The position numbers and the translations under genes are program-made. A DNA stretch of 64,000 nucleotides, from assembly GCA_001797315.1 (NCBI GenBank), contig MGPC01000018.1, positions 124,001-188,000 of the forward strand, written 5' to 3'. This DNA is from Curvibacter sp. GWA2_64_110 (GTDB lineage: Bacteria > Pseudomonadota > Gammaproteobacteria > Burkholderiales > Burkholderiaceae_C). The notes under the pieces are model-generated. The model was not told the origin of the DNA and did not search any database. It saw nothing but the letters and a program-made list of their open reading frames with translations. Positions 438 to 45,806 of this stretch are shown piece by piece. Every line of letters starts with the position of its first letter. Position 1 is the first letter of the stretch.

Positions 438-1409
438 CTACTCATACCCGAAAGAGCGCACGCGGGCCTCGTCGTCTGCCCAGCCGGAACGCACCTTGAC
501 CCAGAGTTCCAGAAATACCTTGGCATCCATCAGCTTCTCGAGCTCGACCCGGGTCTCGGTGCCGATGCGCTTGATGCGCTCGCCCTTGTCGCCGATCACC
601 ATGGCCTTGTGGCCTTCGCGCTCCACCACGATGGTGGCGGCGATCCTGACCAGGCGCTTCTGGCCCTTGCGGCCCGCTTCTTCCTCGAACTTGTCGATCA
701 CCACGGTCGAGGTGTAGGGCAGCTCGTCGCCGGTCAGGCGGAACAGCTTTTCACGCACGGTCTCCGAGGCCAGGAATTTCTCGCTGCGGTCGGTCAGCTC
801 GTCTTCGGCATACCACCAGTCCTGCTCGGGCAGGTATTTCTCGCAGATGCCCAGCAGGCGCTCGATGTCCTTGGCGTTCTTGGCCGACATCGGCACGAAT
901 TCGGCAAACGGATGGCGCTGCTGCATCTCCTGCAGCCACGGCGCAATCTCGGCGCGGCGGTTCACCGTGTCGAGCTTGTTGGCCACCAGCAGGGTGGGGA
1001 TGTCCTTGTTCAAAAGGGCCAGCACCTTGGCATCGGCCTGGTTGAACATGCCGGCCTCCACCACGTACAGGATCAGGTCCACATCGCCCACCGCGCCCAT
1101 CACCGTCTTGTTGAGGGAACGGTTCAGCGCGTTGTTGTGGCGGGTCTGGAAACCCGGGGTGTCGACAAACACGAACTGGGTCGCACCCTGGGTACGCATG
1201 CCGGTGATGCGGTGGCGCGTGGTCTGTGCCTTGCGCGAGGTGATGCTGATCTTCTGACCCACCAGCGCATTGAGCAGGGTGGATTTGCCCACATTGGGTT
1301 TGCCGACGATGGCCACCAGGCCGCAGCGCCGCGCCCCGGCTTGCGCGTCATTCTGGCCGCTGAGCCCCGTGGAATCTTCGCTATCAGCTACTGAATTCAT
1401 AGCATTCAT
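438..1409 (-). CDS. era: GTPase Era
   Basis: The 323-aa protein has the P-loop GKPNVGKST (about 36-44), DTPGF (83-87), NKLD (144-147) and a C-terminal KH domain with [13 protein letters not shown]. Era binds the 3' end of 16S rRNA and acts in 30S maturation. Its start overlaps the rnc stop by 4 bases (ATGA), so translation is probably coupled. The first eight codons are built from a dispersed 17-bp repeat core that ends three bases from the start codon. This gives a non-conserved N-terminal tail of about 28 residues ahead of the G domain. A second in-frame ATG (codon 4) lies inside that core. Confidence 0.97.
1380..1409 (-). repeat. Dispersed 17-bp-core element, copy 1 (era start)
   Basis: On the minus strand the core GCTATGAATTCAGTAGC occupies 1403-1387 and is followed by TGATAGC. 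It matches the cores at 24943 and 43921 at 15 of 17 positions. It encodes era codons 3-8 in frame. The inverted half-sites GCTAT / GTAGC can pair. Confidence 0.7.
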
Positions 1410-2098
1410 GACTTGCCTTGGGTCTTGATCGTCTGCAGCATGGCGGCGGCGGCGGCCTGCTCGCCGGCCCGGCGCGAGCCGCCAATGCCACGCTCGACCA
1501 GCTGCAATTCGGGAATTTCACATTCGACATCGAAGGTCTGCTTGTGCGCCACGCCCAGCGTGGCCACCACGCGGTAGAGCGGCAGTTTCATCTTGCGCCC
1601 CTGCAGCCATTCCTGCAACTCGGTCTTGGGGTCCTTGGCGCTGGCCTGCATCTGCGGGTTGATTTCGACCGCCTGGAACAGGCGCTGCACCAGCGCCTGG
1701 GCCGCCGCATAACCGGCATCCAGATAGACGGCGCCCAGCACCGCTTCCAGCGCATCGGCCAGGATGGAGGGCCGCTTGTGGCCGCCGGAACGCACCTCGC
1801 CTTCGCCCAGCCGCACCACACCGGGCAGGCCCAGTTCCACCGCCAGCTGGTGCAGGGTGTCCTGCTTGACCAGGTTGGCGCGGATGCGCGAGAGGTCGCC
1901 CTCCGGCAGGGCGCGCAGGCGCTCGTACAGCAGGTGCGCCACCGACAGGTTGAGCACCGAGTCGCCGAGGAATTCGAGACGTTCGTTGTGGTCGGCCGAA
2001 AAGCTGCGGTGCGTAACGGCACGCGTCAGCAGCGACGGATCGGAGAAGGAATGCTGCAAGCGGGCTTGCAACGCAGAAAGGCCATCAGACACAGGCAT
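1406..2098 (-). CDS. rnc: Ribonuclease III
   Basis: The 230-aa protein carries the RNase III signature [12 protein letters not shown] (38-49), a second catalytic helix with [16 protein letters not shown], and a C-terminal double-stranded-RNA-binding domain ending in [15 protein letters not shown]. It cleaves double-stranded RNA, including the 30S rRNA precursor. It sits between DUF4845 and era in a tightly packed minus-strand operon and overlaps era by 4 bases. Length and motifs are normal for the family. Confidence 0.97.
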
Positions 2099-2106
2099 CC
2101 ATCACG

Positions 2107-2490
2107 CTATTTGGAACGACCGGCGTACTTGAGGGTCAGCCAGGCCGGGCCGGCGAGGTGGATTTCGCGCTGGTAGGCGAAACTCACCACCACCTTGTCG
2201 CCCTCTTTGGTGACTTCGAGATCCTTGCCGCTGATGGACTTGATGTCGTCGATCTGGGCCGCCTTGTCGAAGATGGCCCGCACTTCCGGCACCGTATTGC
2301 CGTCACGCGCCTTGTTGACGGCCTTGTTCACCGCCTGGTACTCGATCAGCGTCGGCACGACCTGGGCGGCCACCACACCGAGCACGGCCAGCACGGCGCC
2401 GACGAACAGCAGCCCCAGGAAGGTGATGCCGCGCTGAGCCGACTTGCGTTGTCCCTTCATAGCTTTCCCCATGGTATGTTGCATGGCCAT
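2107..2490 (-). CDS. DUF4845 family membrane-anchored protein
   Basis: The 127-aa protein has a short basic N-terminus, one hydrophobic segment (about residues 18-40, FLGLLFVGAVLAVLGVVAAQ) and a small soluble domain ending LTLKYAGRSK. The family has no assigned function. It is conserved between lepB and rnc in betaproteobacteria. The N-terminal pattern (RGITFLGLL) resembles a pseudopilin-type segment. The lepB stop and this start share one base (TGATG), which suggests coupled translation. The ATG at codon 11 (MKGQRKS) is an alternative start. Confidence 0.8.
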   Translation of the reverse strand: MAMQHTMGKAMKGQRKSAQRGITFLGLLFVGAVLAVLGVVAAQVVPTLIEYQAVNKAVNKARDGNTVPEVRAIFDKAAQIDDIKSISGKDLEVTKEGDKVVVSFAYQREIHLAGPAWLTLKYAGRSK

Positions 2491-3454
2491 CAGTTGAATG
2501 AGCCAATGCGTTTCAGGTTGCTGAAATTCATCCAGACAAAGAAGGCCTTGCCCACGATGTTCTGGTCCGGCACAAAGCCCCAGAAACGCGAATCGAGCGA
2601 ATTATCGCGATTGTCGCCCATCATGAAGTAGTGGCCCGCGGGCACCTTGCACACCACGCCCTCGATGCTGTAGCGGCAGCTGTCGCGGTACGGAAACTCC
2701 TCCACGCCCGGGATGAAAGCCGGGCGTTCGTCATCGGTCAGGATGCGGTGCCGGGCGGCACCGAGCGACTCCTCGTACTGCTTGAAGTAACGCATGGCGC
2801 TTTCGTCGAAGAACTCGGGCACCGCGCTGGTGGCCACCGGCTGGCCGTTGATGGTCAGACGCTTGTTCAGGTAGGCCACCTCGTCGCCCGGCACGCCGAC
2901 CACACGCTTGATGTAGTCCAGGCTCGGCTTCGGGGGGTAGCGGAACACCATGATGTCGCCGCGTTCGACCTTGTTGCCTTCGGTGATCTTGGTGTTGATC
3001 ACCGGCAGGCGCACGCCGTAATGGAATTTGTTCACCAGGATCAGGTCGCCCACCAGCAAGGTCGGGATCATGGAGCCGGACGGAATCTTGAACGGTTCGA
3101 ACAGGAAGGAGCGCAGCAGAAAGACCGCCAGGATCACCGGAAACAGACCGGCGGTCCAGTCCAGCCACCAGGGCTGCATCAGCAGCTTCTCGCGCGCCGG
3201 CGCGATGTTGCTGTCGACCTGGGTGATGCCCAGCTTGTTCAGATCGGTGCTGCGCTGCAGCGCCTCGGCTTCGAGCTTGGCCGCCGCCTGCTGACGCTGC
3301 GGCAGGAAGTAGAAACGTTCGGCCAGCCAGTACAGGCCGGTGATGACGGTGGCCAGGAACAGCAGCAGGGCAAAGTTACCCTCGATGACGCCGAAGTACC
3401 AGGAGCCGGCATAACCGGCAAAGGCGGCGAGGATGATGGTGGTGAGGAACTGCA

Positions 3455-3455
<1 letters not shown>
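2490..3455 (-). CDS. lepB: Signal peptidase I
   Basis: The 321-aa protein has N-terminal membrane segments (about 1-20, 27-45 and 103-118). The S26 motifs follow: PSGSMIPTL with nucleophile Ser128, YIKRVVGVPGD with the general-base Lys183, and GDNRDNSLDSR near the C-terminus. It removes signal peptides at the periplasmic face of the inner membrane. Start and stop overlap lepA and DUF4845 by one base each (TGATG), typical of a translationally coupled lepA-lepB operon. Confidence 0.97.
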
Positions 3456-5266
<1,811 letters not shown>

Positions 5267-5310
5267 CAACGGAAACGCTTAAGTGATTGAATTAAAACGG
5301 CGCAGAAAAG

Positions 5311-5342
5311 AAAAAAGGGCGCGTCGAGTTGTGACGCGCCCT
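5311..5342 (-). terminator. Hairpin plus T-run in the lepA leader
   Basis: On the minus strand AGGGCGCGTC and GACGCGCCCT form a perfect 10-bp stem with a 7-base loop, followed directly by TTTTTTCTTTT. It has the form of an intrinsic terminator but ends only about 45 bases before the lepA start. It either backs up the mucD terminator or acts as an attenuator for lepA. Confidence 0.7.
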
Positions 5343-5457
5343 AAACCAACAATCTATGGCAACTGCGATAGTTGGAGCTTCATTGTAGGCAAAAAGCCTG
5401 GTCCGTACAGCCCGAAAATCAGTCGCCAAGGGTCGTTGCAGCGCAGCAACAAGGAAT

Positions 5458-5525
5458 TTATACACAGCTTATCAACATTCTTCAGTGGAGAGATTCTGGA
5501 CAACTTGTGGGCGATCTGTGGATCG
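5458..5525. promoter_or_regulatory. DnaA-box cluster
   Basis: TTATACACA at 5458-5466 is a perfect match to the consensus TTATNCACA. TTATCAACA at 5469-5477 has one mismatch. Two weaker inverted boxes (TGTGGGCGA at 5506 and TGTGGATCG at 5517) follow. Adjacent AT-rich DNA makes the region oriC-like, although dnaA, dnaN and rpmH are not nearby. Confidence 0.45.
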
Positions 5526-5721
5526 TCTCAGTCCGGCTCTACCCCATCTCGTATCGTGGATTAGCAACTTTTCAATATGCCTGTAATCCTCAATCTGAGG
5601 ACTCCATTCTAACCAATTTAAGCAAATCAACAGAAAAAAGTTAGTAATCACAAACTATTTTGAAGTCTCAAGGAGGGCGAAAAATTTAAAAAAATAATTT
5701 TTTACTGCCCTCACATCCGAC

Positions 5722-5756
5722 AAAAACCCCCAAACCCGAGTCGGGGTTGGGGGTTT
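5722..5756 (-). terminator. Intrinsic terminator downstream of mucD
   Basis: AAAACCCCCAAACCC pairs with GGGGTTGGGGGTTTT around a short loop. On the minus strand the stem is followed by TTTTTG. It lies 23 bases past the mucD stop codon. Confidence 0.85.
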
Positions 5757-5778
5757 TGGGTGTCGGCCTGTGGCCTGT

Positions 5779-7242: not shown

Positions 7243-7303
7243 CGACCTCTCATTGACAAAAAACCATCGCCCGGAACAAAGACGCCAGAACGAACATAAG
7301 GCT

Positions 7304-8371
7304 TCATTTCTTCCGCTCAAGCCCCTGGGCAAACGCCTGCAGCGTCGGCCCCGGTACCTCGCCCACCACCGTGAGCCACCAGCCGCCATCCTTGTTGCTG
7401 CTTTTGTCCGCCATGCGCCGCAGCAGGGTATGCGTCGCACCCATCGCCATCAGGCCTTCGGCGCCATGGCGGCGACGATCGAAGGGCTCGATGAACAGCG
7501 ACACCGAAGCCAGTCCGTCGGAAAACACCCACTGCACCAGCGGGTCAGAGGATTGGGCATCGGTACCGGCGGGACGCCGGTAGCAGCTCATGGGCCGGAA
7601 GCCGGGCACGGGGCTCTTGAGCTGCCAGCCCTCGGCCGCCGCCGTGGTCTTGACCAGTTCCGGCTTTTCCAGCTTGTAGCCTTCGGTGTTGCGCATCATC
7701 TGCGTCAGCTTGTCCATGCTGACCGGCACATCCAGCTGAAGCTCGGAGAAAGCCACCTGCTCGAGCACGTGACCGTCCAGATCGAGCGTCTGCAGCTTGA
7801 CGACCAGGCCGGTCTTTTTCTCGCTCCAGATGCGGTAGCCGAAGCGCAGCTTGTCCTTGGGCGCCAGCTGCACCACGTCGGCCTCGAAACCGGCCACCCG
7901 CTCGCTGCCCTGCGCGCGCGCGCTGTAGAACTGGTCGATGGCGCTGTCGGGCGACTTGAGCAGGTGCGGGAACAGGCCCAGCGACTCGCGCTTTTCCGTC
8001 ACTGCCACCTTGCTCTGCGGCGAGAAGGTAATGACCTCGTCGTTGCGGCGGAAGGTGGAGCGCGGCGTGCCGGAAAGCGATTCCACACGCTCGATCTGCT
8101 TCTCGCCATCACACACATGCCAGATGCGCGAACTCGCCATGGCGCCACCGGAAGACACCACCAGCGTGCCGATGTAGGCGCGCCGGCGCGAAGCCTCGTG
8201 CAGGCGCATCAGCCAGTCGGTGATGCTGCGCTCGGCCGCAGCGTTGGTGGCAGCGGCCTCGGTTGATCCGCCGGCGGTTTGCGCCTGGCCGCCCAAGCCG
8301 GCCAGCAGCAGGACACTGGCCAGCAGCAGGCGAAACATGGAAATGGGGTTCATGCGGAACAGGTCGCTCAT
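7304..8371 (-). CDS. rseB: RseB/MucB, periplasmic regulator of sigma-E
   Basis: The 355-aa protein has a signal peptide (MFRLLLASVLLLAGLGG, from about residue 12) and the two-domain MucB/RseB fold: a lipoprotein-like N-terminal domain with SITDWLMRLHEASRRRAYIG and a smaller C-terminal domain. RseB binds the periplasmic part of RseA and shields it from proteolysis until envelope stress. It lies between rseA and mucD. ATG codons at 8371, 8353 and 8338 are all possible starts. Confidence 0.9.
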   Translation of the reverse strand: MSDLFRMNPISMFRLLLASVLLLAGLGGQAQTAGGSTEAAATNAAAERSITDWLMRLHEASRRRAYIGTLVVSSGGAMASSRIWHVCDGEKQIERVESLSGTPRSTFRRNDEVITFSPQSKVAVTEKRESLGLFPHLLKSPDSAIDQFYSARAQGSERVAGFEADVVQLAPKDKLRFGYRIWSEKKTGLVVKLQTLDLDGHVLEQVAFSELQLDVPVSMDKLTQMMRNTEGYKLEKPELVKTTAAAEGWQLKSPVPGFRPMSCYRRPAGTDAQSSDPLVQWVFSDGLASVSLFIEPFDRRRHGAEGLMAMGATHTLLRRMADKSSNKDGGWWLTVVGEVPGPTLQAFAQGLERKK

Positions 8372-8391
8372 GCCATGCAGCTTTCGGTCAT

Positions 8392-9015
8392 TCAGCGGGC
8401 TGGCCGCTCGTAGGTGGCATTGCGCACGAAACCGGCCGGCATCTGCAGCGCCGAGGTACCGCCAAACTGCTGGTGCGCCGCCAGCAGCTGATCCAGGCGC
8501 GGGTCGCGGATCATGGCCTGTGCCGCCTCGGCAACGACAGGCTGCACTGGCGCGCCCGCCTGGGCCAGCTGGTCGCCCCCCTGCGCCGTGCCGTAGGACG
8601 AGGCCAGCTGCCAGCCGACCACCATCACGGCCGCCAGCGAGGCGAAACCGGCCACCAGCTTCCAGCGCAGGCTGGCGTCGTTGACACCTGGATCTTCTGC
8701 ATGATTTCGGCCAGAGGCGCTTGATGCATATGCGCCAACAGCTATCAATTCAATAGCATTCTGAGACTGGAGCGCCGGGTTTTCCTGCTGCAGACGCTGG
8801 CGCAAGCGGGCGGCAAAGGCTGCGTCGCGCGTACCGTCGGCGGCCAGTTCATCCGAGCGCAGCACATCGCCCACCAGATGGTAGGCCTGCCACTGGGCAC
8901 GGGCGTCCTCGCTGTGCTCGATCAGGGCCAAGGCACGCGCGAACTCCTCGCCGCGCAGTTGTCCATCTGCCAGGGCCGAAACCAGTTCACGCGTCTTCGA
9001 CATGTCTTGCGTCAT
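8392..9015 (-). CDS. rseA: RseA/MucA, anti-sigma-E factor
   Basis: The 207-aa inner-membrane protein has an N-terminal anti-sigma domain (RELVSALADGQLRGEEF, then WQAYHLVGDVLRSDEL), a membrane segment at about 117-136 and a periplasmic tail. It holds RpoE inactive. The cytoplasmic linker at about 86-101 (NAIELIAVGAYASSAS) is encoded by a copy of the dispersed repeat, so the linker is probably an in-frame insertion. It is followed by rseB. Confidence 0.92.
   Translation of the reverse strand: MTQDMSKTRELVSALADGQLRGEEFARALALIEHSEDARAQWQAYHLVGDVLRSDELAADGTRDAAFAARLRQRLQQENPALQSQNAIELIAVGAYASSASGRNHAEDPGVNDASLRWKLVAGFASLAAVMVVGWQLASSYGTAQGGDQLAQAGAPVQPVVAEAAQAMIRDPRLDQLLAAHQQFGGTSALQMPAGFVRNATYERPAR
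8716..8757. repeat. Dispersed 17-bp-core element, copy 2 (inside rseA)
   Basis: The core GCTATCAATTCAATAGC (8741-8757) is nearly palindromic. Next to it GGCGCTTGATGCATATGCGCC contains another inverted repeat. It is read in frame as the RseA linker (AIELIAV then GAYASSA). The flank GCGCATATGCATCAAG resembles the flank of the copy at 24943. Confidence 0.7.
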
Positions 9016-9037
9016 CTTCCACTACCTCAGTTTCGTC

Positions 9038-13560: not shown

Positions 13561-13623
13561 CGTGATTCGTCAGAAAGAGTGGGTTGATTCAGGCTTCAGG
13601 CCTTGCTGCATGTGCGCCAGGCG

Positions 13624-14601
13624 CTACATGGTCAGTAGCACCGAGCCCCAGGTGAAGCCGCCGCCCACACCTTCGAGCATGACCAGTTGACCCGGCTTGA
13701 CCTGGCCGCCGCGCACCGCGGCGTCCAGCGCCAGCGGAATCGAGGCGGCGGAGGTATTGCCGTGCTGGTCGACGGTCACGATGACCTTGTCCATAGACAG
13801 CTTGAGCTTCCTGGCCGTGCTCTGCATGATGCGGATGTTGGCCTGGTGCGGGATCAGCCAGTCGATGTCGCCGTCCTGCTTGCCGGCCTTGGCCAGCGAG
13901 GCCCGGGCGGTCTCCTCCAGCACGCCGACCGCCAGCTTGAAGACGGCCTGGCCGTCCATCTTGAGCACCGGGTCGCCCAGCACGTTGCCGCCCGAGACAT
14001 GGCCCGGCACGCACAGGATGCCGACATGCTTGCCATCGGCATGCAGATCGCTGGCCAGGATACCCGGCTTGTCGGAGGCCTCCAGCACCACGGCACCGGC
14101 GCCGTCACCGAACAGCACGCAGGTGGTGCGGTCCTTGAAATCGAGGATGCGCGAGAACACCTCAGCACCGATCACGAGCGCCTTGCTGGCCGCGCCGGTC
14201 TGGATCATGGCGTCGGCCAGGGTCAGGGCATAGATGAAGCCGCTGCAGACCGCCTGCACATCAAAAGCAGGGCAGCCATGGGCACCCAGCTTGTTCTGCA
14301 GAATGCAGGCCGTGGAGGGGAACACCATGTCCGGCGTGGACGTGGCCACAACGATCAGGTCGATGTCCTGGGCCTGCAGGCCGGCGGCCTGCAGGGCATT
14401 GCGGGCTGCGGCTGCTGCCAGGTCGCTGCTGCACTCATCGGGTGCAGCGAAGTGCCGGGCACGGATGCCGGTGCGCTCGACAATCCAGTCGTCGGAAGTC
14501 TCCACCCCTTGGGTAGCCAGTTCGGCCACCAGTTGGGCATTGCTCAGGCGGCGGGACGGCAGGTAGCTGCCGGTACCAGTGATGCGGGAATAACGTCTCA
14601 T
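13624..14601 (-). CDS. fabH: 3-oxoacyl-ACP synthase III
   Basis: From ATG 14601 the protein is 325 aa ([18 protein letters not shown]). Catalytic Cys119 lies in [12 protein letters not shown], His in IPHQANIRI and Asn in [10 protein letters not shown]. It starts fatty-acid synthesis by condensing an acyl-CoA with malonyl-ACP. The frame is open 13 codons further upstream (MAWPVPGKP), but the chosen start matches the family's N-terminus. Confidence 0.96.
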
Positions 14602-18083: not shown

Positions 18084-19124
18084 TCAGCGGAACGAGGGCA
18101 GCGTGCGCAGCGCCTTGACGGCGCCTTCACCGATGGCAGCGCCGAAACGCTTGACCAGGCGCTCGGCCACGTTATCGCGCCGGGTGTAGTCGACCACCTC
18201 TTCGGCCTTCACCACTTCGCGCGCCACGTAGTCGAGATTGCCAAGCTGGTCGGCCAGGCCAAGTTCGATGGCTTGCTGGCCGGTCCAGAACAGACCGCTG
18301 AACATCTCCGGCGATTCCTTCAGGCGCTGGCCGCGCCCGGCCTTGACCACGGTGATGAACTGCTGGTGGATCTGGTCCAGCATGGTCTGCGTGTAGACAC
18401 GCTGCTTCTCGGTCTGCGGGCTGAAGGGGTCGAGAAAACCCTTGTTCTCGCCGGCCGTCATCAGGCGGCGCTCGATGCCGAGTTTGTCCATCAGGCCGGT
18501 GAAGCCGAAACCGTCCATCAGCACGCCGATGCTGCCCACGATGCTGGCCTTGTCGACATAGATCCGGTCGGCCGACACGGCGATGTAATAAGCCGCCGAG
18601 GCCGCCGCCTCTTCCACCACGGCATAGACCGGCTTCTTGTGCTTGGCCTTCAGGCGCCGGATCTCGTCGTTGATGATGCCGGCCTGCACCGGGCTGCCGC
18701 CGGGCGAATTGATCAGCAGCACGATAGCCTGGGCGCCATGGTCCTCGAAAGCGCTGCGGATGGACGACACGATCAGCTCGGCGCTGGCCTCGGTGCCGGA
18801 GGCAATCTCGCCCTGGATCTCCACCAGTGCGGTGTGCGGCGTGCTGACGTTCTTGGTCGGCCCCCCCAGACCGAAGCCGATCCAGACCAGCACGGCGATG
18901 AACACCAGCCAGCTGAGGCGCCCGATCAGGCGGAAACGGCGCGCCGCGCGCTGTTCCGCCAGGGCCGCAAAGGCCAGCTTCTCGATGACGCTGCGCTCCC
19001 AGCCCGGCGCTTCGGCAGTGCCTTCCTTTGCTCCGTTTTTGATAGCCGCTTGCGCAGTATCAGCGGCATCCTGTGGGATTTTTCGCATCTCGTCGTGGGT
19101 TTCGGGGCGGTTGGAATCATTCAT
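18084..19124 (-). CDS. sppA: Signal peptide peptidase SppA-type S49 protease
   Basis: The 346-aa protein has a cytoplasmic N-terminal tail, one membrane anchor (about 70-88) and an S49 protease domain with LLINSPGGSPVQAG, EEAAASAAYYIAV (nucleophile serine near 177) and DKASIVGSIGV. This is the short single-domain form. It digests cleaved signal peptides in the membrane. Residues 20-33 (AADTAQAAIKNGAK) are encoded by a copy of the dispersed repeat. The Rieske gene ends one base upstream. Confidence 0.9.
   Translation of the reverse strand: MNDSNRPETHDEMRKIPQDAADTAQAAIKNGAKEGTAEAPGWERSVIEKLAFAALAEQRAARRFRLIGRLSWLVFIAVLVWIGFGLGGPTKNVSTPHTALVEIQGEIASGTEASAELIVSSIRSAFEDHGAQAIVLLINSPGGSPVQAGIINDEIRRLKAKHKKPVYAVVEEAAASAAYYIAVSADRIYVDKASIVGSIGVLMDGFGFTGLMDKLGIERRLMTAGENKGFLDPFSPQTEKQRVYTQTMLDQIHQQFITVVKAGRGQRLKESPEMFSGLFWTGQQAIELGLADQLGNLDYVAREVVKAEEVVDYTRRDNVAERLVKRFGAAIGEGAVKALRTLPSFR
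19030..19068 (-). repeat. Dispersed 17-bp-core element, copy 3 (inside sppA)
   Basis: On the minus strand the core is GCTATCAAAAACGGAGC (19046-19030), preceded by GCTGATACTGCGCAAGCG. This is the A-rich subtype, matching copies at 29055, 37419 and 45777. It is read in frame in the cytoplasmic tail of SppA. Confidence 0.65.
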
Positions 19125-24853: not shown

Positions 24854-24942
24854 GTGTTTGATGAAGTCTTTTGCTGTGCAACGATGTCGGGATGTGCGCC
24901 CGACACCCTGGCCCGGTCAGGCACAGCAGAACAACACCAAAC

Positions 24943-24986
24943 GCTACGAATTCAATAGCTATTCGCGCAATACCAACAGGGCTCAA
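24943..24986. repeat. Dispersed 17-bp-core element, copy 4 (intergenic)
   Basis: The core GCTACGAATTCAATAGC (24943-24959) is followed by TATTCGCGCAATACCAACAGG. The flank aligns with the flank of the rseA copy after allowing small gaps. This copy is not translated in any recognised gene. Confidence 0.65.
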
Positions 24987-24993
24987 GGCACAA

Positions 24994-25018
24994 AAAAGCC
25001 CGCAAGCAGCGGGCTTTT
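24994..25018 (-). terminator. Intrinsic terminator downstream of the GGDEF-like gene
   Basis: AAAAGCCCGC / GCGGGCTTTT form a perfect 10-bp stem with a 5-base loop. On the minus strand the tail reads TTTTTTG. It would end the hem operon transcript. Confidence 0.85.
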
Positions 25019-28526: not shown

Positions 28527-29323
28527 TGCATCGATTCTATCGAGGCCTTGATGTCGGCCAAGGCCGGCCGTGACTCGCACACCACACCGAAGCCGGCCTG
28601 CCGCGCCGCCGCCGCGATGCGCGGGTGGGTGGCGACGGCACGCGCGGCACGCCAGCTTTGGCTTGGCAGACAGGCCAGCAGGTTGTGCACGGCCTCGCTG
28701 CTGCTGAAGAGCCAGACCGAACCATCGGCAGCGGCCTCGGCGGCGAGTTGCTGTTGCGCCGCATCGAACTGCGGCCGGGCGCGCTGGTAGGCAACGACAA
28801 AATCCGCCGTCGCCCCGGCCTCGGCCAGGCGCCGGGCCAGCCAGTCGCGGCCGCTGCCGACACCCGTGTCGGCGCTCTGGGCGTCACCACCGCGCACGAT
28901 CAGCACCCGGTCGCCCGGCTGCACCTGCGGGCCGACCACCTGCCACAGGGCTTCGGAATCGAACTGCGCCGCATCACTGGCCGGCGCATCGATGCGCTCG
29001 GGCGCCACGCCGGCACGCAGCAAAGCCTTGGTGGTGCCGGGCCCAGGCGACCATGCTCTCGTTTTGATAGCGGCTCCCTCAGCAAATACGCCGCCAAGAG
29101 CCTTATTTGATGCAAAAAAACCAGCCACCGCGTTGGCGCTGACGAACATCACGCCGGCATAAGCGGCGGCGGCCAGTTGCTGCCAGGCGTGCGCCAGCGC
29201 CGCCGGTTCGGGAGCCGAACGGATGTCGATCAGCGGGAGGGCCTGCGCCGGCAGGCCGGCGGCCGACAGTTCGCGGACCCAGTCCTGCGACTCGCGCTGC
29301 GGCCGGGTCACGATGACGCGCAT
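28523..29323 (-). CDS. hemD: Uroporphyrinogen-III synthase
   Basis: The 266-aa protein has the loose HemD pattern: VIVTRPQRESQDW at the start, MFVSANAVAGFF, WSPGPGTTKALLRAG, GDRVLIVRGG and WLFSSSEAVHNL. It closes hydroxymethylbilane into uroporphyrinogen III. Residues of about 71-88 (SNKALGGVFAEGAAIK) are extra relative to my expectation for the family and are encoded by a copy of the dispersed repeat, right before the conserved WSPGPGT. It starts three bases after the hemC stop. Confidence 0.92.
   Translation of the reverse strand: MRVIVTRPQRESQDWVRELSAAGLPAQALPLIDIRSAPEPAALAHAWQQLAAAAYAGVMFVSANAVAGFFASNKALGGVFAEGAAIKTRAWSPGPGTTKALLRAGVAPERIDAPASDAAQFDSEALWQVVGPQVQPGDRVLIVRGGDAQSADTGVGSGRDWLARRLAEAGATADFVVAYQRARPQFDAAQQQLAAEAAADGSVWLFSSSEAVHNLLACLPSQSWRAARAVATHPRIAAAARQAGFGVVCESRPALADIKASIESMQ
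29055..29110 (-). repeat. Dispersed 17-bp-core element, copy 5 (inside hemD)
   Basis: On the minus strand the core is GCTATCAAAACGAGAGC (29071-29055), preceded by an AT-richer stretch (GCATCAAATAAGGCTCTTGG). It is read in frame as a surface-loop-like insertion in HemD. The codon use of this stretch is visibly less GC-rich than the flanking gene. Confidence 0.65.
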
Positions 29324-37035: not shown

Positions 37036-37779
37036 TCAGAGCGAGGCAATCGCTTCCCGCACTGCCGACAACTGCCGCCGTGACACCGACAGCAATTCAT
37101 CGATGCCGATCAGCCGCACCGCCCAGCCCTCGCCCTCCTCCGGGTCGTAGTGCTTCTCCAGCGCGCGCACGGCGCGCCGGGCCACCAGGGCGTTGCGGTG
37201 AATGCGCATGAACTGCGCCGGGTATTTCTCTTCCAGCTCGCTCAGCGAGCCGTCGAGGATGTAGCTCTTGGCCGCGGTGCGCACGGTGATGTATTTCAGC
37301 TCAGCCTTGAAGTACAGCACCTCGGCCAGCGGTACGCGCTCGGTGCGGCCGCGTTCCTGGATCACCAGGCATTCTTCAGGAAAATCGGGCCCCAGCCCTT
37401 TCCCTGCTTGCGCCAGCCGCTCTACTTTTTGTAGCGCCTGTTGCAAGCGCTCCAGCCGCACCGGCTTGGTCAGGTAGTCCACGGCCTCGATCTCGAAGGC
37501 CTGCACTGCGTGCTCGGCGTGCGCGGTGACGAACACGATGGCCGGCGGCTTGGGGAGTTCGCGCAGGGTGCGCGCCAGCGTCAGGCCGTCGGCGCCGGGC
37601 ATGTGGATGTCGAGCAGGGCGACGTCGAATGCCTGCTGGCGCAGCAGTTCGATGGCTTGGATGGCATTGGCGGCCTCGCCGGCCACACTGACCGCCGGGC
37701 TGCTGCAGTCGCCCAGCAGGGTGCGCAGCCGGGCGCGCGCCAGGGATTCGTCGTCGACGATCAGGGCCTGTAATGTCAT
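37036..37779 (-). CDS. LytTR-family response regulator (AlgR-like)
   Basis: The 247-aa protein has a receiver domain (acidic pocket VDDE, phospho-acceptor Asp57 in LLDIHMPG, Lys in TKPVR) and a C-terminal LytTR DNA-binding domain (VLYFKAELKYITVRT, FMRIHRNALV). The inter-domain linker at about 110-121 (ALQKVERLAQAG) is encoded by a copy of the dispersed repeat. It overlaps the histidine-kinase gene by 4 bases, so the two are a cognate pair. Target genes cannot be read from the sequence. Confidence 0.93.
   Translation of the reverse strand: MTLQALIVDDESLARARLRTLLGDCSSPAVSVAGEAANAIQAIELLRQQAFDVALLDIHMPGADGLTLARTLRELPKPPAIVFVTAHAEHAVQAFEIEAVDYLTKPVRLERLQQALQKVERLAQAGKGLGPDFPEECLVIQERGRTERVPLAEVLYFKAELKYITVRTAAKSYILDGSLSELEEKYPAQFMRIHRNALVARRAVRALEKHYDPEEGEGWAVRLIGIDELLSVSRRQLSAVREAIASL
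37419..37435 (-). repeat. Dispersed 17-bp-core element, copy 6 (regulator linker)
   Basis: On the minus strand the core is GCTACAAAAAGTAGAGC, followed by GGCTGGCGCAAGC. It is the A-rich subtype and lies exactly at the linker between receiver and LytTR domains. This is the weakest of the eight copies. Confidence 0.5.
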
Positions 37780-38810: not shown

Positions 38811-38956
38811 GCAGCGGATGGCAGGACCAGCCAAAGGGACCAGTCCACAAGGGCCAGGACCCGATTATTGGTGAAGTCCGGCCCCCTGCACAATCTGTAT
38901 TCATCCGACGTATTCACACGACAATGGGGTCCCCGCCCCATCCACCGCACGGCCCC

Positions 38957-40390
<1,434 letters not shown>

Positions 40391-40403
40391 AGGAGCCCGC
40401 ACC

Positions 40404-40871
40404 ATGAGCACCGCCACCACGCTTGCCTGGTCGCCCGAACTGGCGCTGGGCGACGCCCGCACCGACACCACACACGAGGAATTCGTCGAGCTGGTCAACG
40501 CCACCTCGGCCGCTGCGCCCGAAGCCCGGCTCGCGCTCTACCAGGAGTTGGTCCGTCACACGGTGGAACATTTCGCGCAGGAAGAACGCTGGATGACGGC
40601 CTGCGGCATCCCGCCCGATTTCTGCCACTTCTCGCAGCACAACAGCGTGCTGGAAGTGATGCGCGAAGTCGAACGCCGCGCACTCATCGGCGAGACGGCC
40701 CTGATCGACTCGATGCTCGAAGCGCTGGTGGAATGGTTCCCCCAGCACGCCCAGAGCATGGACGCCGGGCTGGTGAGCTACCTGGCGGAAAAGGGCTTCG
40801 ACACCGCCAGCGAAACCTTCAACAACAACACCCCCAACGAGACGACAGGAGTTCCTTCATGCCACCCGTGA
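40404..40871 (+). CDS. Bacteriohemerythrin
   Basis: The 155-aa protein has all seven di-iron ligands of hemerythrin in order: His24, His56, Glu60, His75, His79 (HFSQH), His115 and Asp120 (HAQSMD). It would bind O2 reversibly. AGGAG precedes the ATG, 13 bases after argH. The last 13 bases overlap the start of the following FMN-dependent dehydrogenase, whose Shine-Dalgarno lies inside this gene, so expression is probably coupled. The C-terminal ~25 residues are low-complexity (FNNNTPNETTG). Confidence 0.92.
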   Translation: MSTATTLAWSPELALGDARTDTTHEEFVELVNATSAAAPEARLALYQELVRHTVEHFAQEERWMTACGIPPDFCHFSQHNSVLEVMREVERRALIGETALIDSMLEALVEWFPQHAQSMDAGLVSYLAEKGFDTASETFNNNTPNETTGVPSCHP

Positions 40872-42019
40872 TCACCAACATCGAAGACCTGCGCGTGCTG
40901 GCGCAAAAACGCGTGCCGCGCATGTTCTACGACTACGCTGACAGCGGCTCCTGGACCGAGAGCACCTACCGCGCCAATGAAAGCGACTTCCAGAAGATCA
41001 AGCTGCGCCAGCGCGTGGCCGTCAACATGGAAGGCCGCACCACACGCAGCACCATGGTCGGCCAGGAGGTGGCGATGCCGGTGGCCATTGCCCCGGTGGG
41101 CCTGACCGGCATGCAGCACGCCGACGGCGAGATCATGGCGGCGCGCGCGGCCAAGGCCTTCGGCATCCCGTTCACGCTCTCGACCATGAGCATCTGCTCG
41201 ATCGAGGACGTGGCCAAGGGCACCGACGGCCACCCGTTCTGGTTCCAGCTCTACGTCATGAAGGACCGCGACTTCATCGAGCGCCTGATCGACCGCGCCA
41301 AGGCGGCCAACTGCTCGGCGCTGGTCGTGACGCTGGACCTGCAGATCCTGGGCCAGCGCCACAAGGACCTGAAGAACGGCCTGAGCGCACCGCCCAAGCT
41401 GACCATCGCCAACATGATCAACATCGCCACCAAGCCGCGCTGGGCACTGGGCATGCTGGGCACGCCGCGGCGCCAGTTCGGCAACATCGTCGGCCACGTC
41501 AAGGGCGTGGAGAACATGGGCTCGCTCTCGGCCTGGACGGCGCAGCAGTTCGACCCGCGCCTGAACTGGGGCGACGTGGAATGGATCAAGAAGCGCTGGG
41601 GCGGCAAGCTCATCCTCAAGGGCATCCAGGACGTGGAAGACGCCCGCCTGGCGGTGGACAGCGGCGCCGATGCGCTGATCGTCTCCAACCACGGCGGCCG
41701 CCAGCTCGACGGCGCGGAGTCCAGCATCAACGCGCTGCCGGCCATCGTCGAAGCGGTGGGCAATCGCATCGAGGTGCACATGGACGGCGGCATCCGCTCC
41801 GGCCAGGACGTGCTCAAGGCGCGCGCCCTGGGTGCCAAGGGCACCTACATCGGCCGCTCCATGGTCTACGGCCTGGGCGCCATGGGCGAGGCCGGCGTGG
41901 CCAAGGCGCTGCAGATCATCCGCAACGAGCTCGACCTCACCATGGCCTTCTGCGGCCACACCGACATCAACACGGTGGACCGCAGCATCCTGCTGCCGGG
42001 CACCTACCCGACGGCCTGA
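40859..42019 (+). CDS. lldD: FMN-dependent alpha-hydroxy acid dehydrogenase (L-lactate dehydrogenase-like)
   Basis: The 386-aa TIM-barrel protein has PVAIAPVGLTGMQHADGE, the active-site stretch LIVSNHGGRQLDGAESS (His and Arg) and VHMDGGIRSGQDVLKA for FMN phosphate binding. It oxidises L-lactate or a related 2-hydroxy acid and passes electrons to quinone or O2. It is coupled to the bacteriohemerythrin gene. The symbol is by family similarity; glycolate or mandelate cannot be excluded as substrate. Confidence 0.85.
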   Translation: MPPVITNIEDLRVLAQKRVPRMFYDYADSGSWTESTYRANESDFQKIKLRQRVAVNMEGRTTRSTMVGQEVAMPVAIAPVGLTGMQHADGEIMAARAAKAFGIPFTLSTMSICSIEDVAKGTDGHPFWFQLYVMKDRDFIERLIDRAKAANCSALVVTLDLQILGQRHKDLKNGLSAPPKLTIANMINIATKPRWALGMLGTPRRQFGNIVGHVKGVENMGSLSAWTAQQFDPRLNWGDVEWIKKRWGGKLILKGIQDVEDARLAVDSGADALIVSNHGGRQLDGAESSINALPAIVEAVGNRIEVHMDGGIRSGQDVLKARALGAKGTYIGRSMVYGLGAMGEAGVAKALQIIRNELDLTMAFCGHTDINTVDRSILLPGTYPTA

Positions 42020-42041
42020 TCGTCTGGCACAAGGTGCAGGC

Positions 42042-42626
42042 TCAAGCGGCCTGCACCTCCAGCTGGTACAGACCCCAGGGGCACTGGGCGAAGCGCTCGG
42101 GCAGCGGCTTGGTCGCCATGTCGGGGTAGCGGTCGGCATCGAACACGGCCCACAGCGGACCCAGGCCGCCCAGCGCCATCGGCTGGCCATCCAGATGGGT
42201 GGCGACGATGAAGCGGTACTGGCGCGCCTGCGCCAGGCTCAGTGTGACGGTGTAGCCGTCAACGGCGCGCATCAGCAGCCTGGCACCCTCGCCCACGGCC
42301 GCGCCGGTTGCTTTCACCACGTCGCTCAGCAGCGGCCCTTGGAGCGTGTGCACCTTGGCGTCGTATTCCAGCGTGGGGCGGATGGTGACGGCCGGTAGGC
42401 GGCTGAGGGCATCGAAGTCGAACACATGCGCCTTGTCGAACGTGATCTGCTGCTTGGCCATCATCTGGTCCAGTGCCTTGTCGAGCGGGCCACGGTTGCC
42501 GCGGCCGATGGCGCCGGTGACGGTCAGCAGGCCGGGGCCACCGCGATGGCGGCGGGCCGGGGCGGCCAGGGCCGGGATGGACAAGGTCGCGCTGCCGACA
42601 GCGGCCAGAAAATCGCGTTTTTTCAT
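42042..42626 (-). CDS. Small secreted protein with molybdopterin-oxidoreductase-like domain
   Basis: The 194-aa protein has an N-terminal signal (MKKRDFLAAVGSATLSIPAL) and a domain resembling the sulfite-oxidase molybdopterin-binding fold (GPLLSDVVKATGA, LLMRAVDGYTVTLSL, ATHLDGQPM). The usual molybdenum-ligand Cys segment is absent; the only Cys is near the C-terminus (FAQCPWGLYQLEV). It may therefore not carry Moco. It is convergent with the preceding dehydrogenase gene and divergent from dinB. Confidence 0.7.
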   Translation of the reverse strand: MKKRDFLAAVGSATLSIPALAAPARRHRGGPGLLTVTGAIGRGNRGPLDKALDQMMAKQQITFDKAHVFDFDALSRLPAVTIRPTLEYDAKVHTLQGPLLSDVVKATGAAVGEGARLLMRAVDGYTVTLSLAQARQYRFIVATHLDGQPMALGGLGPLWAVFDADRYPDMATKPLPERFAQCPWGLYQLEVQAA

Positions 42627-42687
42627 GTCAACTCCTGAGCGGGGGTGGGACAGCATCGCGCTGCATTCTGCGCGCTATGCTTGGCCG

Positions 42688-43959
42688 GTGTCTACTTCAC
42701 CCGCGTCTGCCCCGCCCCCGCCGCGCCCGATCCGCCGCATCGCCCACCTCGACATGGATGCGTTCTACGCCTCGGTCGAGCTGCTGCGCTACCCGCAGCT
42801 CAAGGGCCTGCCGGTGGTCATCGGCGGCAGCCGTCGCCGGCCTGACGACGCCCTGCTGCAACAGTACACCGAGGTGCTGCTGTCCGAGATTCCCGTCGCA
42901 GCATTTCCACTGTTGAAGGACTACACCGGTCGCGGCGTCATCACCACCGCCACCTATCCGGCGCGCCAGTTCGGCGTCGGCTCGGCCATGGGCCTGATGA
43001 AAGCCGCCAAGCTGTGCCCGCAGGCCATCCTGCTGCCGGTGGACTTCGACGAGTACCGCCAGTACTCGCGCCGGTTCAAGGACGTCATCACCGAGATCGC
43101 GCCGCTGATGGAAGACCGTGGCGTGGACGAGGTCTACATCGATTTCACCGAGGTGCCCGGCGGCCAGCGCGACGGCGGGCGCACCCTGGCGCGGCTGATC
43201 CAGAAAAGCATCCTGGAGGCCACCGGCCTGACCTGCTCCATCGGCGTGGCACCCAACAAGCTGCTGGCCAAGATGGCAAGCGAGTTCAACAAGCCCAAGG
43301 GCATTTCCATCGTCCTGCCGGACGATCTGCAGACACTGATCTGGCCGCTGCCCTGCCGCAAGATCAACGGCGTCGGCCCCAAGACCGACGTCAAGCTGCA
43401 GACACACGGCATCCACACCATCGGCGAACTGGCAGCACGCGAACCGGTCTGGCTGGTGGAACACTTCGGCAAAAGCTACGGCGCCTGGCTGCATGAGGCG
43501 GCCTGGGGCCGCGACGAGCGGCCGGTGGTGACCGAGAGCGAACCGGTGTCGGTGAGCCGCGAAACGACGTTTGAGCGCGACCTGCACGCCGTGCGCGACA
43601 AGGCCGAGCTGGGCGCCGTCTTCACCTGGCTGTGCGAGCGCGTGGCGGCCGACCTGCAACGCAAAGGTTATGTGGGCAAGACCATCGGCATCAAGCTGCG
43701 CTACGACGACTTCAAGAGCGTGACGCGCGACCAGACCATCGCCCACTACACGGCGGACGCCAAGACCATCCGCCAGGCCGCCGGCCAGTGCCTCAAGCGT
43801 GTGGACCTGACGCGCCGGCTGCGCCTGCTGGGGGTGCGGGTGGGCTCGCTGCTGCGCTCGGACGAGGCGCCGGATTTGATACCAAAACAGGCCTCAGACC
43901 TTACCAATGCTGCGCTGATAGCTATGGATTCAGGAGCAAAAACCGGGTCGCTGTTCTGA
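42688..43959 (+). CDS. dinB: DNA polymerase IV
   Basis: The 423-aa Y-family polymerase has the metal-binding HLDMDAF (Asp22, Asp24), EDRGVDEVYID, IGVAPNKLLAKMAS and NGVGPKTDVKL. It copies damaged templates. A GTG at 42688 was taken as start because the family N-terminus follows; an in-frame ATG at 42625 is possible but overlaps the preceding divergent gene. An insertion at about 48-78 (RRRPDDALLQQYTEVLLSEI onward) appears typical of the betaproteobacterial form. The last ~30 residues come from the dispersed repeat, replacing a clear beta-clamp motif. Confidence 0.92.
   Translation: MSTSPASAPPPPRPIRRIAHLDMDAFYASVELLRYPQLKGLPVVIGGSRRRPDDALLQQYTEVLLSEIPVAAFPLLKDYTGRGVITTATYPARQFGVGSAMGLMKAAKLCPQAILLPVDFDEYRQYSRRFKDVITEIAPLMEDRGVDEVYIDFTEVPGGQRDGGRTLARLIQKSILEATGLTCSIGVAPNKLLAKMASEFNKPKGISIVLPDDLQTLIWPLPCRKINGVGPKTDVKLQTHGIHTIGELAAREPVWLVEHFGKSYGAWLHEAAWGRDERPVVTESEPVSVSRETTFERDLHAVRDKAELGAVFTWLCERVAADLQRKGYVGKTIGIKLRYDDFKSVTRDQTIAHYTADAKTIRQAAGQCLKRVDLTRRLRLLGVRVGSLLRSDEAPDLIPKQASDLTNAALIAMDSGAKTGSLF
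43876..43940 (+). repeat. Dispersed 17-bp-core element, copy 7 (dinB 3' end)
   Basis: The core GCTATGGATTCAGGAGC (43921-43937) is preceded by GCTGCGCTGATA and by an AT-richer stretch with TTTGATACCAAAACAGG. It is read in frame as the DinB C-terminal tail (AALIAMDSGAKTG) up to the stop. Confidence 0.65.
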
Positions 43960-43984
43960 ACCTGAGGGGCGCGGGTCAGCACCG

Positions 43985-44013
43985 TTGACAGAAGCTGACG
44001 CCAAACTTACATT
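43985..44013 (+). promoter_or_regulatory. Sigma-70-type promoter before the 92-aa gene
   Basis: TTGACA (43985-43990) and TACATT (44008-44013) are separated by exactly 17 bases. The Shine-Dalgarno AGGAGG and ATG follow at 44026-44039. Confidence 0.55.
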
Positions 44014-44036
44014 GAGACCTCGTTCAGGAGGTCCCC

Positions 44037-44315
44037 ATGAACCACCCCCTCACGCTGATGGAAATCCATCGCATCAAGCGATGGCATGTGGCGCACCGGG
44101 CCGAGCACCCGCTGGAATACGAGTTGTGGGATGCCGTGCTTTGCCTGTGGCTGATGGGCTGGGTCGGCTGGTTGCCGGCCTTCGCGCTCGATGCGCTCTG
44201 GGCTTGCCCGCTGTGCCTGCTGGGCATGGGCACACCGCGGCTGTACGTGGCCTGGCGCCGGCACGCGCACCGGCTGCAGCGCCTGCGGTGCGACTGGCTC
44301 GGCAGCGCCAGCTAA
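44037..44315 (+). CDS. Small membrane-associated protein, unknown
   Basis: The 92-aa protein begins MNHPLTLMEIHRIKRWHVAH. It has one or two hydrophobic segments (about 29-62, including LWLMGWVGWLPAFALDALWA) and a basic C-terminus rich in Arg and His. The family is not recognised. A perfect AGGAGG and a well-spaced promoter precede it, which makes it a convincing gene. It is convergent with the next gene, with only 4 bases between the stops. Confidence 0.7.
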   Translation: MNHPLTLMEIHRIKRWHVAHRAEHPLEYELWDAVLCLWLMGWVGWLPAFALDALWACPLCLLGMGTPRLYVAWRRHAHRLQRLRCDWLGSAS

Positions 44316-44319
44316 CGCT

Positions 44320-44775
44320 TCAAGCCACCTCGATGTCGTCCTGATGGTTGGCCACGTGAAACGCGTGGGCCAGGGCGAAATCGGCCCGGCTCAGCGCCCC
44401 ATAGGCAAAGTGCGGTTGGAGCGCACCGGTGTGGGCCTGGAAGCGCGTGACCGCCGCGCGCAGGCGAGCCGCGCCGGGCTGCCAGTCCTCCAGCTGCGCC
44501 AGCGCTGGTGCGCCAGGAATCGGCTCCGTCAGGCCGTGGCTCATGCGGCCACGCCACTTGAAAAAGGCAAAGGCCGCCGAGCCGGCGGTGGCTTGGAACA
44601 GCGCGCTTTTCGGTGCGGGGAAACCATCCAGGCTCATCTCGATGCTTTGCGCCAGGTGCTCGAGCACGGCCCGCATCGTCCACGCATTGGTGCTGCGCAC
44701 CCGGGTGGCACGCTCGAGCCGGTCGAGCCAGCGCAGCACGTCGTCCAGGGATTGAACTTTAGGAATGTCGGCCAT
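44320..44775 (-). CDS. DUF1569 (DinB-like four-helix) family protein
   Basis: From ATG 44775, which has a good GGAGG four bases upstream, this encodes 151 aa. WTMRAVLEHLAQSIEMSLDG and the C-terminal HAFHVANHQDDI give the paired histidines expected of the DinB/YfiT-like metal-binding helical fold seen in DUF1569. A longer form from 44829 would add a Tat-like leader (MNRRHYLVLQTSLLAGG), seen in some family members; the two starts cannot be separated here. The function is unknown. Confidence 0.72.
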   Translation of the reverse strand: MADIPKVQSLDDVLRWLDRLERATRVRSTNAWTMRAVLEHLAQSIEMSLDGFPAPKSALFQATAGSAAFAFFKWRGRMSHGLTEPIPGAPALAQLEDWQPGAARLRAAVTRFQAHTGALQPHFAYGALSRADFALAHAFHVANHQDDIEVA

Positions 44776-44916
44776 GGCGCCTCCGGCGAGCAAGCTCGTC
44801 TGTAGAACAAGGTAGTGTCTGCGATTCATCGTGAAGGGCGCCGTGTTTCGCGCAGGTGACTGTCGAAGAACGGCCCGCTCGATTACAGTTTAACCATCCC
44901 TACTGCCGCTGCCGCC

Positions 44917-45753
44917 ATGAACTGCTTCACGCTCACCGTCACCGACCACATCGCCCACCTGGTGCTGAACCGCCCGGAGGCGATGAACACCATGCACCCG
45001 CTGTTCTGGCGCGAGCTCGACGCCGTGCTGATGCAGCTGCACGCCAGCGGCGAGGCGCGCGTGCTGGTCATCAGCAGCACCGGCAAGCACTTCAGTGCCG
45101 GCATGGCGCTGGAAACCTTCAGCGGCGCGGTGCAACTGAACGACAAGACACCCGAGGGCCGCGCCGCCGTCTTCGACCTGCTGACCGACATGCAGGCCAC
45201 CTTCACCAAGCTGGAGACGCTGCGCATCCCGGTGATCGCCGCCATCCAGGGCGGCTGCATCGGCGGCGCAGTGGACATGGTGAGCGCCTGCTGCCTGCGC
45301 TACGCCACGCGTGATGCCTTCTTCTGCATCCAGGAAATCAACATCGGCATGGTGGCCGACGTCGGCACGCTGCAACGGCTGCCCAAGCTCATGCCGCTGG
45401 GCGTGGTGAAGGAGCTGGCCTACACCGGCCGCCGCCTGCCGGCAGCGCAGGCGCTCGGTTACGGCCTGGTGAACCAGGTGTTCGACACACCGGAAGCGCT
45501 GCTGGCCGCTGCGCTGCAGACGGCCCAGGAGATTGCGACCAAGCCGCCGGTGGCGATCTGGGGCACCAAGCAGGCACTGCACTACGCACGCGACCACGGC
45601 GTCGACGACGCGCTCAAGCAGATGGGCTGGCTGCAGGGCGCGATCTGGAGCAATAAGCATGTGCTGGAGGCCGTGACGGCCATGAAGGAAAAGCGCGGCG
45701 GCAACTTCCCGCCGCTGGCGCCACTGCAATCCTTCAAGGAAATTGGCCAGTAG
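44917..45753 (+). CDS. Delta(3,5)-delta(2,4)-dienoyl-CoA isomerase-like enoyl-CoA hydratase/isomerase
   Basis: The 278-aa crotonase-fold protein has the oxyanion-hole segment HFSAGMALETF and QGGCIGGAVDMVSACC. The stretch EINIGMVADVGTLQRLP closely resembles mammalian ECH1. The three ECH1 catalytic acids (Asp in GAVDMV, Glu in IQEIN, Asp in VADVG) are all present, so the isomerase reaction in unsaturated fatty-acid oxidation is more likely than plain hydration. It stands alone and is convergent with queF. Confidence 0.82.
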   Translation: MNCFTLTVTDHIAHLVLNRPEAMNTMHPLFWRELDAVLMQLHASGEARVLVISSTGKHFSAGMALETFSGAVQLNDKTPEGRAAVFDLLTDMQATFTKLETLRIPVIAAIQGGCIGGAVDMVSACCLRYATRDAFFCIQEINIGMVADVGTLQRLPKLMPLGVVKELAYTGRRLPAAQALGYGLVNQVFDTPEALLAAALQTAQEIATKPPVAIWGTKQALHYARDHGVDDALKQMGWLQGAIWSNKHVLEAVTAMKEKRGGNFPPLAPLQSFKEIGQ

Positions 45754-45767
45754 CCCTTGCCGAATAA

Positions 45768-45806
45768 GCGCCAGAAGCTAATTTTTTGATAGCAAACTAC
45801 TGGCGC
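45768..45806. repeat. Dispersed 17-bp-core element, copy 8 (queF stop)
   Basis: The core GCTAATTTTTTGATAGC (45777-45793; GCTATCAAAAAATTAGC on the minus strand) is enclosed by GCGCCAG (45768-45774) and CTGGCGC (45800-45806), which pair. The queF stop codon (45799-45797) and its last codon lie inside. The hairpin with T and A runs could serve as a bidirectional terminator for the two convergent genes. Confidence 0.7.

Follow-up and report, generated by a model that had tools for sequence, protein, structure and literature searches.

We found that a stretch of 64,000 nucleotides from Curvibacter sp. GWA2_64_110 (contig MGPC01000018.1, positions 124,001 to 188,000; hereafter the window) carries a dispersed and directional element of about 60 bp, the left third of which is a 17-bp palindromic core, GCTAY-N7-RTAGC. 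This element is very probably a DNA signal under selection rather than a decaying insert. We tentatively read it as a genomic signal recognized by a protein, most likely a DNA-uptake (self-recognition) sequence. An earlier note on this DNA had proposed a dispersed family with a constant 17-bp core on the basis of eight 17-mers, all of which indeed stand where it had placed them.

Architecture, abundance and conservation of the element

The loose frame GCTAY-N9-AGC, by which these segments had been recognized, is matched 17 times in the window, i.e., at 13 distinct places, palindromes being scored on both strands. The shuffled sequences gave a mean of 2.03 matches, and 17 was reached in none of 100 shuffles, so that the existence of a family beyond chance is confirmed. 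The constant core is real as well; the unit to which it belongs is longer and has a direction. Indeed, after the palindrome come, at nearly fixed spacing, TGnTnGCGC, then ACAAGGGCT, then GGCC, and then ATTTGAT. We searched the window together with 352 kb from two other contigs of the same genome (415,779 bases in total) with an iterated profile and obtained 37 copies at E ≤ 0.01, while the reversed-sequence control of this sample gave no profile match. Many more copies than those first described, a prediction of the earlier note, are thus present. The density is one copy per 11 kb, which extrapolates to about 300 copies per genome of 3.4 Mb. A simple pattern count of GCTAY-N7-RTAGC over the source genome gave 181 cores vs 51 for the backward control, and the copy numbers obtained on whole genomes with a covariance model are lower bounds (150 of the 150 scored candidates matched; elsewhere 81 were scored per genome).

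A MAFFT alignment of 33 of the 37 copies has 75 columns without any gap, a mean identity of 63%, and the consensus TTGCTATnAAATnnATAGCTGnTnGCGCAnATnnnACAAGGGCTnnnGGCCGATTTGAT; the profile's own alignment of all 37 contains small indels, mainly in the final third. In the profile alignment the AT-rich centres of the copies form a range, of which the copies once set apart as an "A-rich subtype" are simply a part. The information held by the element amounts to about 51 bits, a figure inflated to some degree by the finding of the copies with a profile of themselves, and 14.5 bits would suffice to locate the copies.

Conservation was followed in syntenic stretches from three close relatives (G002, G004, and G025), with a flank identity of 0.90. 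The 51 spanning alignments cover 29 of the 38 listed copies, one partial alignment having been set aside. Columns 7–9 (GCT in nearly all copies) and 21–23 (AGC) are identical in all 51 orthologous alignments, and identity in the remaining columns lies between 0.53 and 0.98, being highest (0.96–0.98) at A14, T16, T20, C30, and T58–T59. In longer alignments, all six outer letters of the core are kept at 50 of 50 element sites; the figures for control GCT-N11-AGC sites are 174 of 318 and, for the non-coding ones, 7 of 19. In the reverse direction, 46 copies of the relatives have spanning synteny (the 15 of 61 that do not were left out); 44 of them have a counterpart of at least 20 bits in the source genome, and the other two map to one and the same site, window 19029, where a decayed copy of 9.1 bits is found. 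Since all 46 have a counterpart, no site is missing at this depth. The motif is therefore under constraint, and conserved rather than decaying.

Sites of the element and their origin

In the window, the profile built from the 416-kb sample finds eight copies at E ≤ 0.01, each a frame of 75 columns. The first, at 1335..1409 on the minus strand (35.2 bits, E 2.1e-9), lies at the rnc/era junction and codes for the Era N-tail; it has a spanning alignment in G004, and the same site is occupied in other genera. It is followed on the minus strand by a copy in the rseA linker (8689..8763, 51.0 bits), present in the three relatives, and by a copy that spans the stop codon of fabH and the spacer between fabH and fabD (13571..13645, 32.5 bits). 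The latter is present in G004 and G025, and is found at the same site and on the same strand in other genera. Two copies are on the plus strand, one between convergent genes (24937..25011, 31.3 bits, present in G025) and one opposite hemD (29049..29123, 25.7 bits, with an orthologue of 33.4 bits in G025). The last three, on the minus strand, occupy the linker of a LytTR response regulator gene (37367..37441, 35.6 bits), the strand opposite the C-tail of a DinB-type polymerase gene (43869..43943, 39.5 bits), and the space between the convergent queF and enoyl-CoA hydratase genes (45725..45799, 46.9 bits), these last two being present in all three relatives. Opposite the N-tail of an SppA-like protease gene, 19029..19064 (plus strand, as judged from the relatives) scores only 9.1 bits; we consider it a decayed copy because its orthologues score 24.1 bits in G025 and 20.7 bits in G004. 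The profile thus recovers seven of the eight segments first described, the one at 19030 being this decayed copy, and adds a copy at 13623 that had been missed. Six of them had been said to be translated in frame. This holds for Era, RseA, and LytTR, which are coded in the element's own reading, and not for HemD, DinB, and SppA, where the element is on the opposite strand; that copies are tolerated at protein linkers and tails is borne out. The remaining loose-frame places (7823, 11428, 47242, and 59383) have no profile match at E ≤ 0.05. An Rfam scan gave no family match at the elements and just two matches at E ≤ 1, both elsewhere and below the gathering score. One is a weak AsrC match at window 5191-5266 (plus strand, 32.5 bits for a gathering score of 111), antisense to the end of the open reading frame (ORF) 3455-5269.

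Over the whole sample, with genes called by a simple ORF caller based on GC3, the 37 copies divide into 16 intragenic ones, 12 that straddle the start or the end of a gene, and 9 intergenic ones. Hence, 21 of 37 are not wholly inside genes vs 19% expected, random segments falling inside genes in 81% of cases. Intragenic copies use both strands (nine with the direction of the gene, seven against it), and eight of the nine same-strand copies are in the phase in which the palindrome's TAG is not read as a codon. Apart from one copy at a contig edge, the non-genic copies were classified by the orientation of the neighboring genes: of these 20, 12 are flanked by tandem genes and 8 by convergent ones. 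None is flanked by divergent genes, although 63 of 326 gene pairs are divergent. The element favors gene ends and permissive protein segments. Along the complete genome of a relative (G029), the best 150 matches display no strand polarity and no clustering, their spread being Poisson-like (p 0.43).

The earlier note had compared the family to Rickettsia palindromic elements inserted into coding sequence, a view under which clean indels are expected against orthologues. This is not what we observed. The stretch of the LytTR regulator coded by the element is ungapped against three of three element-poor congeners, the insertion is likewise absent from the FabH C-terminus in three of three, and in the single congener aligned over the whole site the DinB tail shows a difference of one residue. 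HemD and RseA are, respectively, 7 and 14 amino acids longer in the window than in three element-poor congeners, which is less than one element in both cases. In FabD, the profile finds the element in eight loci of other genera (10–34 bits). There, the core residues (typically D-A-A-K-V-I-A-G-C-A-E-V-T) align without gap to element-free orthologues, length differences of about four residues occurring in some rows only further downstream, and the core codons read, e.g., GCTGCAAAAGTAATAGCT in element loci and typically GCCGCCAAGGTGATCGCC in other loci. The ungapped alignments at FabD in other genera and at LytTR therefore imply that the motif arose there by substitution. Indeed, the same residues in element-free orthologues, which the note itself had counted against an inserted element, are found at FabD and in part at LytTR. 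Two other sites are less telling. The Era N-tail is too variable, with distances of 281–350 in seven loci with the element and of 230, 343, and 356 in three without it. The fabH-fabD spacer measures 93–108 nt in 16 element loci and 43–175 nt in 51 loci without, six of the latter having 43–53 nt; taken by itself this test is ambiguous, a full-length spacer being kept in many of the 51, some of which hold decayed copies or copies of another dialect. These lengths leave room for the gain of a block at fabH-fabD. On the whole, the alignments speak against block insertion at several sites.

Distribution, dialects and mobile DNA

Among 80 named loci around rseB, the window is placed beside Curvibacter sp. 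PD_MW3, Curvibacter delicatus, and a Hylemonella metagenome-assembled genome (MAG). At least one copy was found at E ≤ 0.05 in 29 of these loci (3–21 kb each), the reversed control giving none, and several copies occupy the same sites, on the same strand, in Rhodoferax, Ramlibacter H39-3-26, and Comamonadaceae MAGs. Counting the core GCTAY-N7-RTAGC over 200 genomes of the family, we found that 59 (the carriers) hold 40–708, 17 hold 11–39, and 124 hold 0–10, while the backward control pattern occurs 16–149 times in every one of the 200. Carriers are present in 41 of 126 genera, four of which mix a carrier with a few-copy genome; the congeners G114 and G208, for instance, hold 368 and 6 cores. 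Outside the family, the source-genome model was run on 24 genomes, each from a different family of the order, and retrieved just one weak match.

The 3' part of the element differs by genome, e.g., TGCTTGAGCA..CATGGGCTGATGGC in G083 and TGCTCCCGCgATATTCTATTGG in G107. Over columns 24–62, measured on copies found with the profile trained on the source genome, identity is 0.546 for the same site across genomes (548 pairs), 0.481 for different sites within a genome (158 pairs), and 0.442 otherwise (4061 pairs). Judged from these identities, the pattern is one of mostly vertical descent, to which a weak genome-wide dialect is added.

On mobile DNA, blastn with two copies against 50,697 phage records gave no match. 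Exact matches to a stricter pattern were obtained in 55 stretches of viral contigs (74 copies in 501 kb in all), stretches which may include host flanks. No copy was found in 31,000 bases of the Verminephrobacter eiseniae conjugative plasmid. A 242-kb Diaphorobacter plasmid carries two copies in opposite orientation, one at each end of cobN (20000 and 24133 of the extract L362). A 30-bit copy also lies at 1495-1546 of the NC_019286.1 extract (L301), within a DUF1010 reading frame that has qacEdelta1 on one side and aac(6')-Ib on the other; this context resembles a class 1 integron cassette, and 50 plasmid records match, which suggests a cassette derived from Comamonadaceae DNA. Finally, two low-copy genomes, from two genera that lack the genome-wide family, hold paired GCTAC-N7-GTAGC palindromes (G136:C12:212591-212638, L271, and G178:C41:283384-283426, L260) beside regulator genes that we take to be HxlR-like; these pairs are probably local operators.

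Candidate functions and comparison with known systems

We tentatively take the element for a signal in double-stranded DNA, about 60 bp long and present at about 300 copies per genome, that a protein recognizes. The reader would be the type IV pilus DNA-uptake machinery, and the abundance of the element would be kept by the biased uptake and recombination of the DNA carrying it. A biased-uptake signal jointly predicts the use of both strands, the permissive placement, the dialects around an invariant core, the origin in place, and the uneven abundance. In the widest form of this reading, which we advance with slightly more reserve, many Comamonadaceae would possess a third system of self-recognition at DNA uptake, evolved independently, whose signal of about 60 bp is composite and palindromic and has its own dialects; elsewhere the system would have been lost as a set. 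The putative signal would explain the species-specific transformation of Acidovorax and the sequence-specific one of Verminephrobacter. According to the portions of PMC4212676 consulted, natural transformation occurs in A. temperans, A. facilis, and V. eiseniae; A. temperans is transformed only by DNA of its own species; and transformation of V. eiseniae depends on the type IV pilus, its uptake being called sequence specific, and is lowered only about 10-fold by an excess of salmon DNA of up to 1500-fold. The same portions give 9–11 bp as the length of known uptake sequences (PMC4212676).

Several observations weigh against an uptake signal. The element, at about 60 bp, goes far beyond this length, is not organized around a short core of 9–12 bp, and holds about 51 bits (inflated, as said) where 14.5 are needed. 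Uptake sequences in Neisseria and Haemophilus occur roughly once per kb, above the one copy per 11 kb found here. ComEC was detected in 195 of the 200 genomes, i.e., in 58 of the 59 carriers and also in 120 of the 124 genomes with 0–10 cores, and was undetected in one carrier with 110 cores (G088); carriers and non-carriers alike having ComEC, we rejected it as a discriminating gene. No candidate receptor turned up, no search aimed at minor-pilin receptors having been made. The FabD evidence has its own weak points: the core codons are present in 6 of 15 loci with at least three copies and also in 4 of 48 with none (three of these four are Polaromonas, whose fabH-fabD spacer holds a copy of another dialect), the FabD of the window itself is without the core, and 4 of the 8 FabD matches score just 10–15 bits. 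Finally, the near lack of turnover among close relatives is also expected of fixed protein-binding sites.

This last point leads to the main rival, which would account for most of what favors uptake and which we hold to be somewhat less likely, namely that the copies are bound by a protein or protein complex that organises the chromosome (nucleoid), sites and protein having been lost together from some lineages. The dyad-symmetric core with its nearly fixed spacing, the constancy of this core in 51 of 51 alignments with hardly any turnover, the use of both strands, the even spread, and the abundance in some genomes next to near absence in others would all suit such sites. However, the element holds an excess of information (about 51 bits vs 14.5), no bias is seen for the best 150 matches along the complete G029 chromosome, the dialects of the 3' part would need many coordinated changes with a fixed binding protein, and no candidate protein was found. 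It is unlikely that the element is an old mobile palindromic repeat, spread by insertion in the manner of Rickettsia palindromic elements or of repetitive extragenic palindromic (REP) sequences and later kept for a function, although a similarity over 60 bp exceeds what a binding site needs, and the fabH-fabD spacers (93–108 nt with the element, 43–53 nt in 6 of 51 loci without) as well as the longer RseA and HemD could be so explained. On the contrary, the origin in place at FabD and LytTR, the lack of any missing site among relatives, and a palindrome without covariation do not agree with it. The genes for a Y1 transposase domain, of the REP-associated tyrosine transposase (RAYT) kind, point both ways: 49 of the 51 carriers examined (among 59) have one, but carriers G068 and G176 have no match, all three low-copy genomes examined have one, and the domain is found in 52 of the 54 genomes in total, mostly as a single copy. 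The Y1 gene of the source genome (contig C36, L302 7072-7800) is flanked by an inverted GGGGTCAGATTCCAATTAT-like repeat unrelated to the element, and with this negative survey a RAYT/REP link was rejected.

An element acting at the RNA level at transcript 3' ends, e.g., as a terminator or mRNA stabiliser, is very improbable. The preference for gene ends and convergent spacers would fit it, and some dialects have, by eye, a second inverted repeat in the 3' part (a G029 copy reads GCGCTTG-N5-CAAGCGC and a G114 copy GCGCCCG-N5-CGGGCGC). Moreover, among 206 aligned copies from many lineages, columns 33/34–43 of this lineage-variable part pair above expectation, at best 0.61 vs 0.44 for columns 34–43; this weak excess may reflect the dialects. 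But 7 of the 16 intragenic copies are opposite to the gene, no Rfam family matches the elements, single-copy folds vary, and RNAalifold on the source-genome copies gives a consensus fold of 3 pairs at -0.42 kcal/mol with no compensatory change. The conservation of RNA structure raised in the earlier note is thus not found in the palindrome, where pairing in the 206 copies equals independence (e.g., 0.63 vs 0.66), and the RNA hairpin or terminator was set aside as a candidate. The absence of covariation in the palindrome, together with the use of both strands inside genes, points to a protein reading double-stranded DNA; the element is probably not an RNA structure.

To our knowledge, Neisseriaceae and Pasteurellaceae are the only families in which uptake sequences are firmly established. 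If the preferred reading of the element as an uptake signal is true, it would add a third case, built differently and found in a family that includes laboratory species open to transformation. How self-recognition signals originate, change dialect, and are lost could then be tested directly. With a chromosome-organising protein as the reader, hundreds of sites of this length and their loss as a set would also be unusual. Either way, the element marks the DNA of these bacteria, even in an integron cassette on enterobacterial plasmids. Rickettsia palindromic elements insert as blocks and form long hairpins. They share with the present element the presence in and between genes and the tolerance by proteins, and differ from it by its origin in place at several sites and its unsupported core hairpin; PMC3733652 also mentions them. 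The REP/GTAG repeats associated with RAYT transposases are also, in the portions of PMC3733652 consulted, short, palindromic, located near gene ends, and possible carriers of a TAG stop, whereas no GTAG- or CGTC-tagged hairpin and no tie to a Y1 transposase were seen here. The BRE of Bordetella are reported in Comamonadaceae genomes with some copies within genes; with a length of about 90 bp, a GC content of 69%, and, in Bordetella, a tandem arrangement of variable copy number, they are set apart from the element by this description (PMC3110155, in part). The window contains, at 344-444 (plus strand), another dispersed repeat, rich in GC and about 100 nt long. It is 89% identical to C3:105528-105656 (L011:5528-5656) of the same genome and recurs many times in G002, G004, and G025, where the better copies reach 84–98% identity; going by the description of the BRE in PMC3110155, it may be this repeat. 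Among the literature matches listed, from which most subscription journals are outside coverage, no Comamonadaceae uptake sequence or palindromic repeat is described, and the portions of PMC2755013 and PMC3110155 consulted hold nothing on the element.

The closest likeness is with the DNA uptake sequences (DUS) of Neisseriaceae and the uptake signal sequences (USS) of Pasteurellaceae. They are likewise genome-wide, on both strands, in permissive places, with lineage dialects and an origin in place. DUS are described as occupying permissive regions, both intragenically and, between genes, as inverted pairs (PMC3630211). The element differs from them by its length of about 60 bp with a 17-bp palindrome, where they have a core of 9–12 bp, and by its lower density. 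In the family itself, two potential novel motifs were listed in 2017, with no function given in the part of PMC5217627 at hand: GCTTAT(N)5AAGCG in Acidovorax ebreus, with 114 copies, 107 of them intergenic (44 convergent, 4 divergent, and 59 co-oriented), and ATAGCT(N)22CAAAAG in Polaromonas naphthalenivorans, with 125 copies, 18 of them in genes. Like the element, both are mostly near gene ends, with some copies in genes, and they are very probably fragments of it in other dialects. Unlike the present analysis, that listing, as far as its consulted part goes, shows no palindrome, dialects, or link between the two motifs (PMC5217627). Whichever protein reads it, the element joins these motifs left unexplained in 2017.

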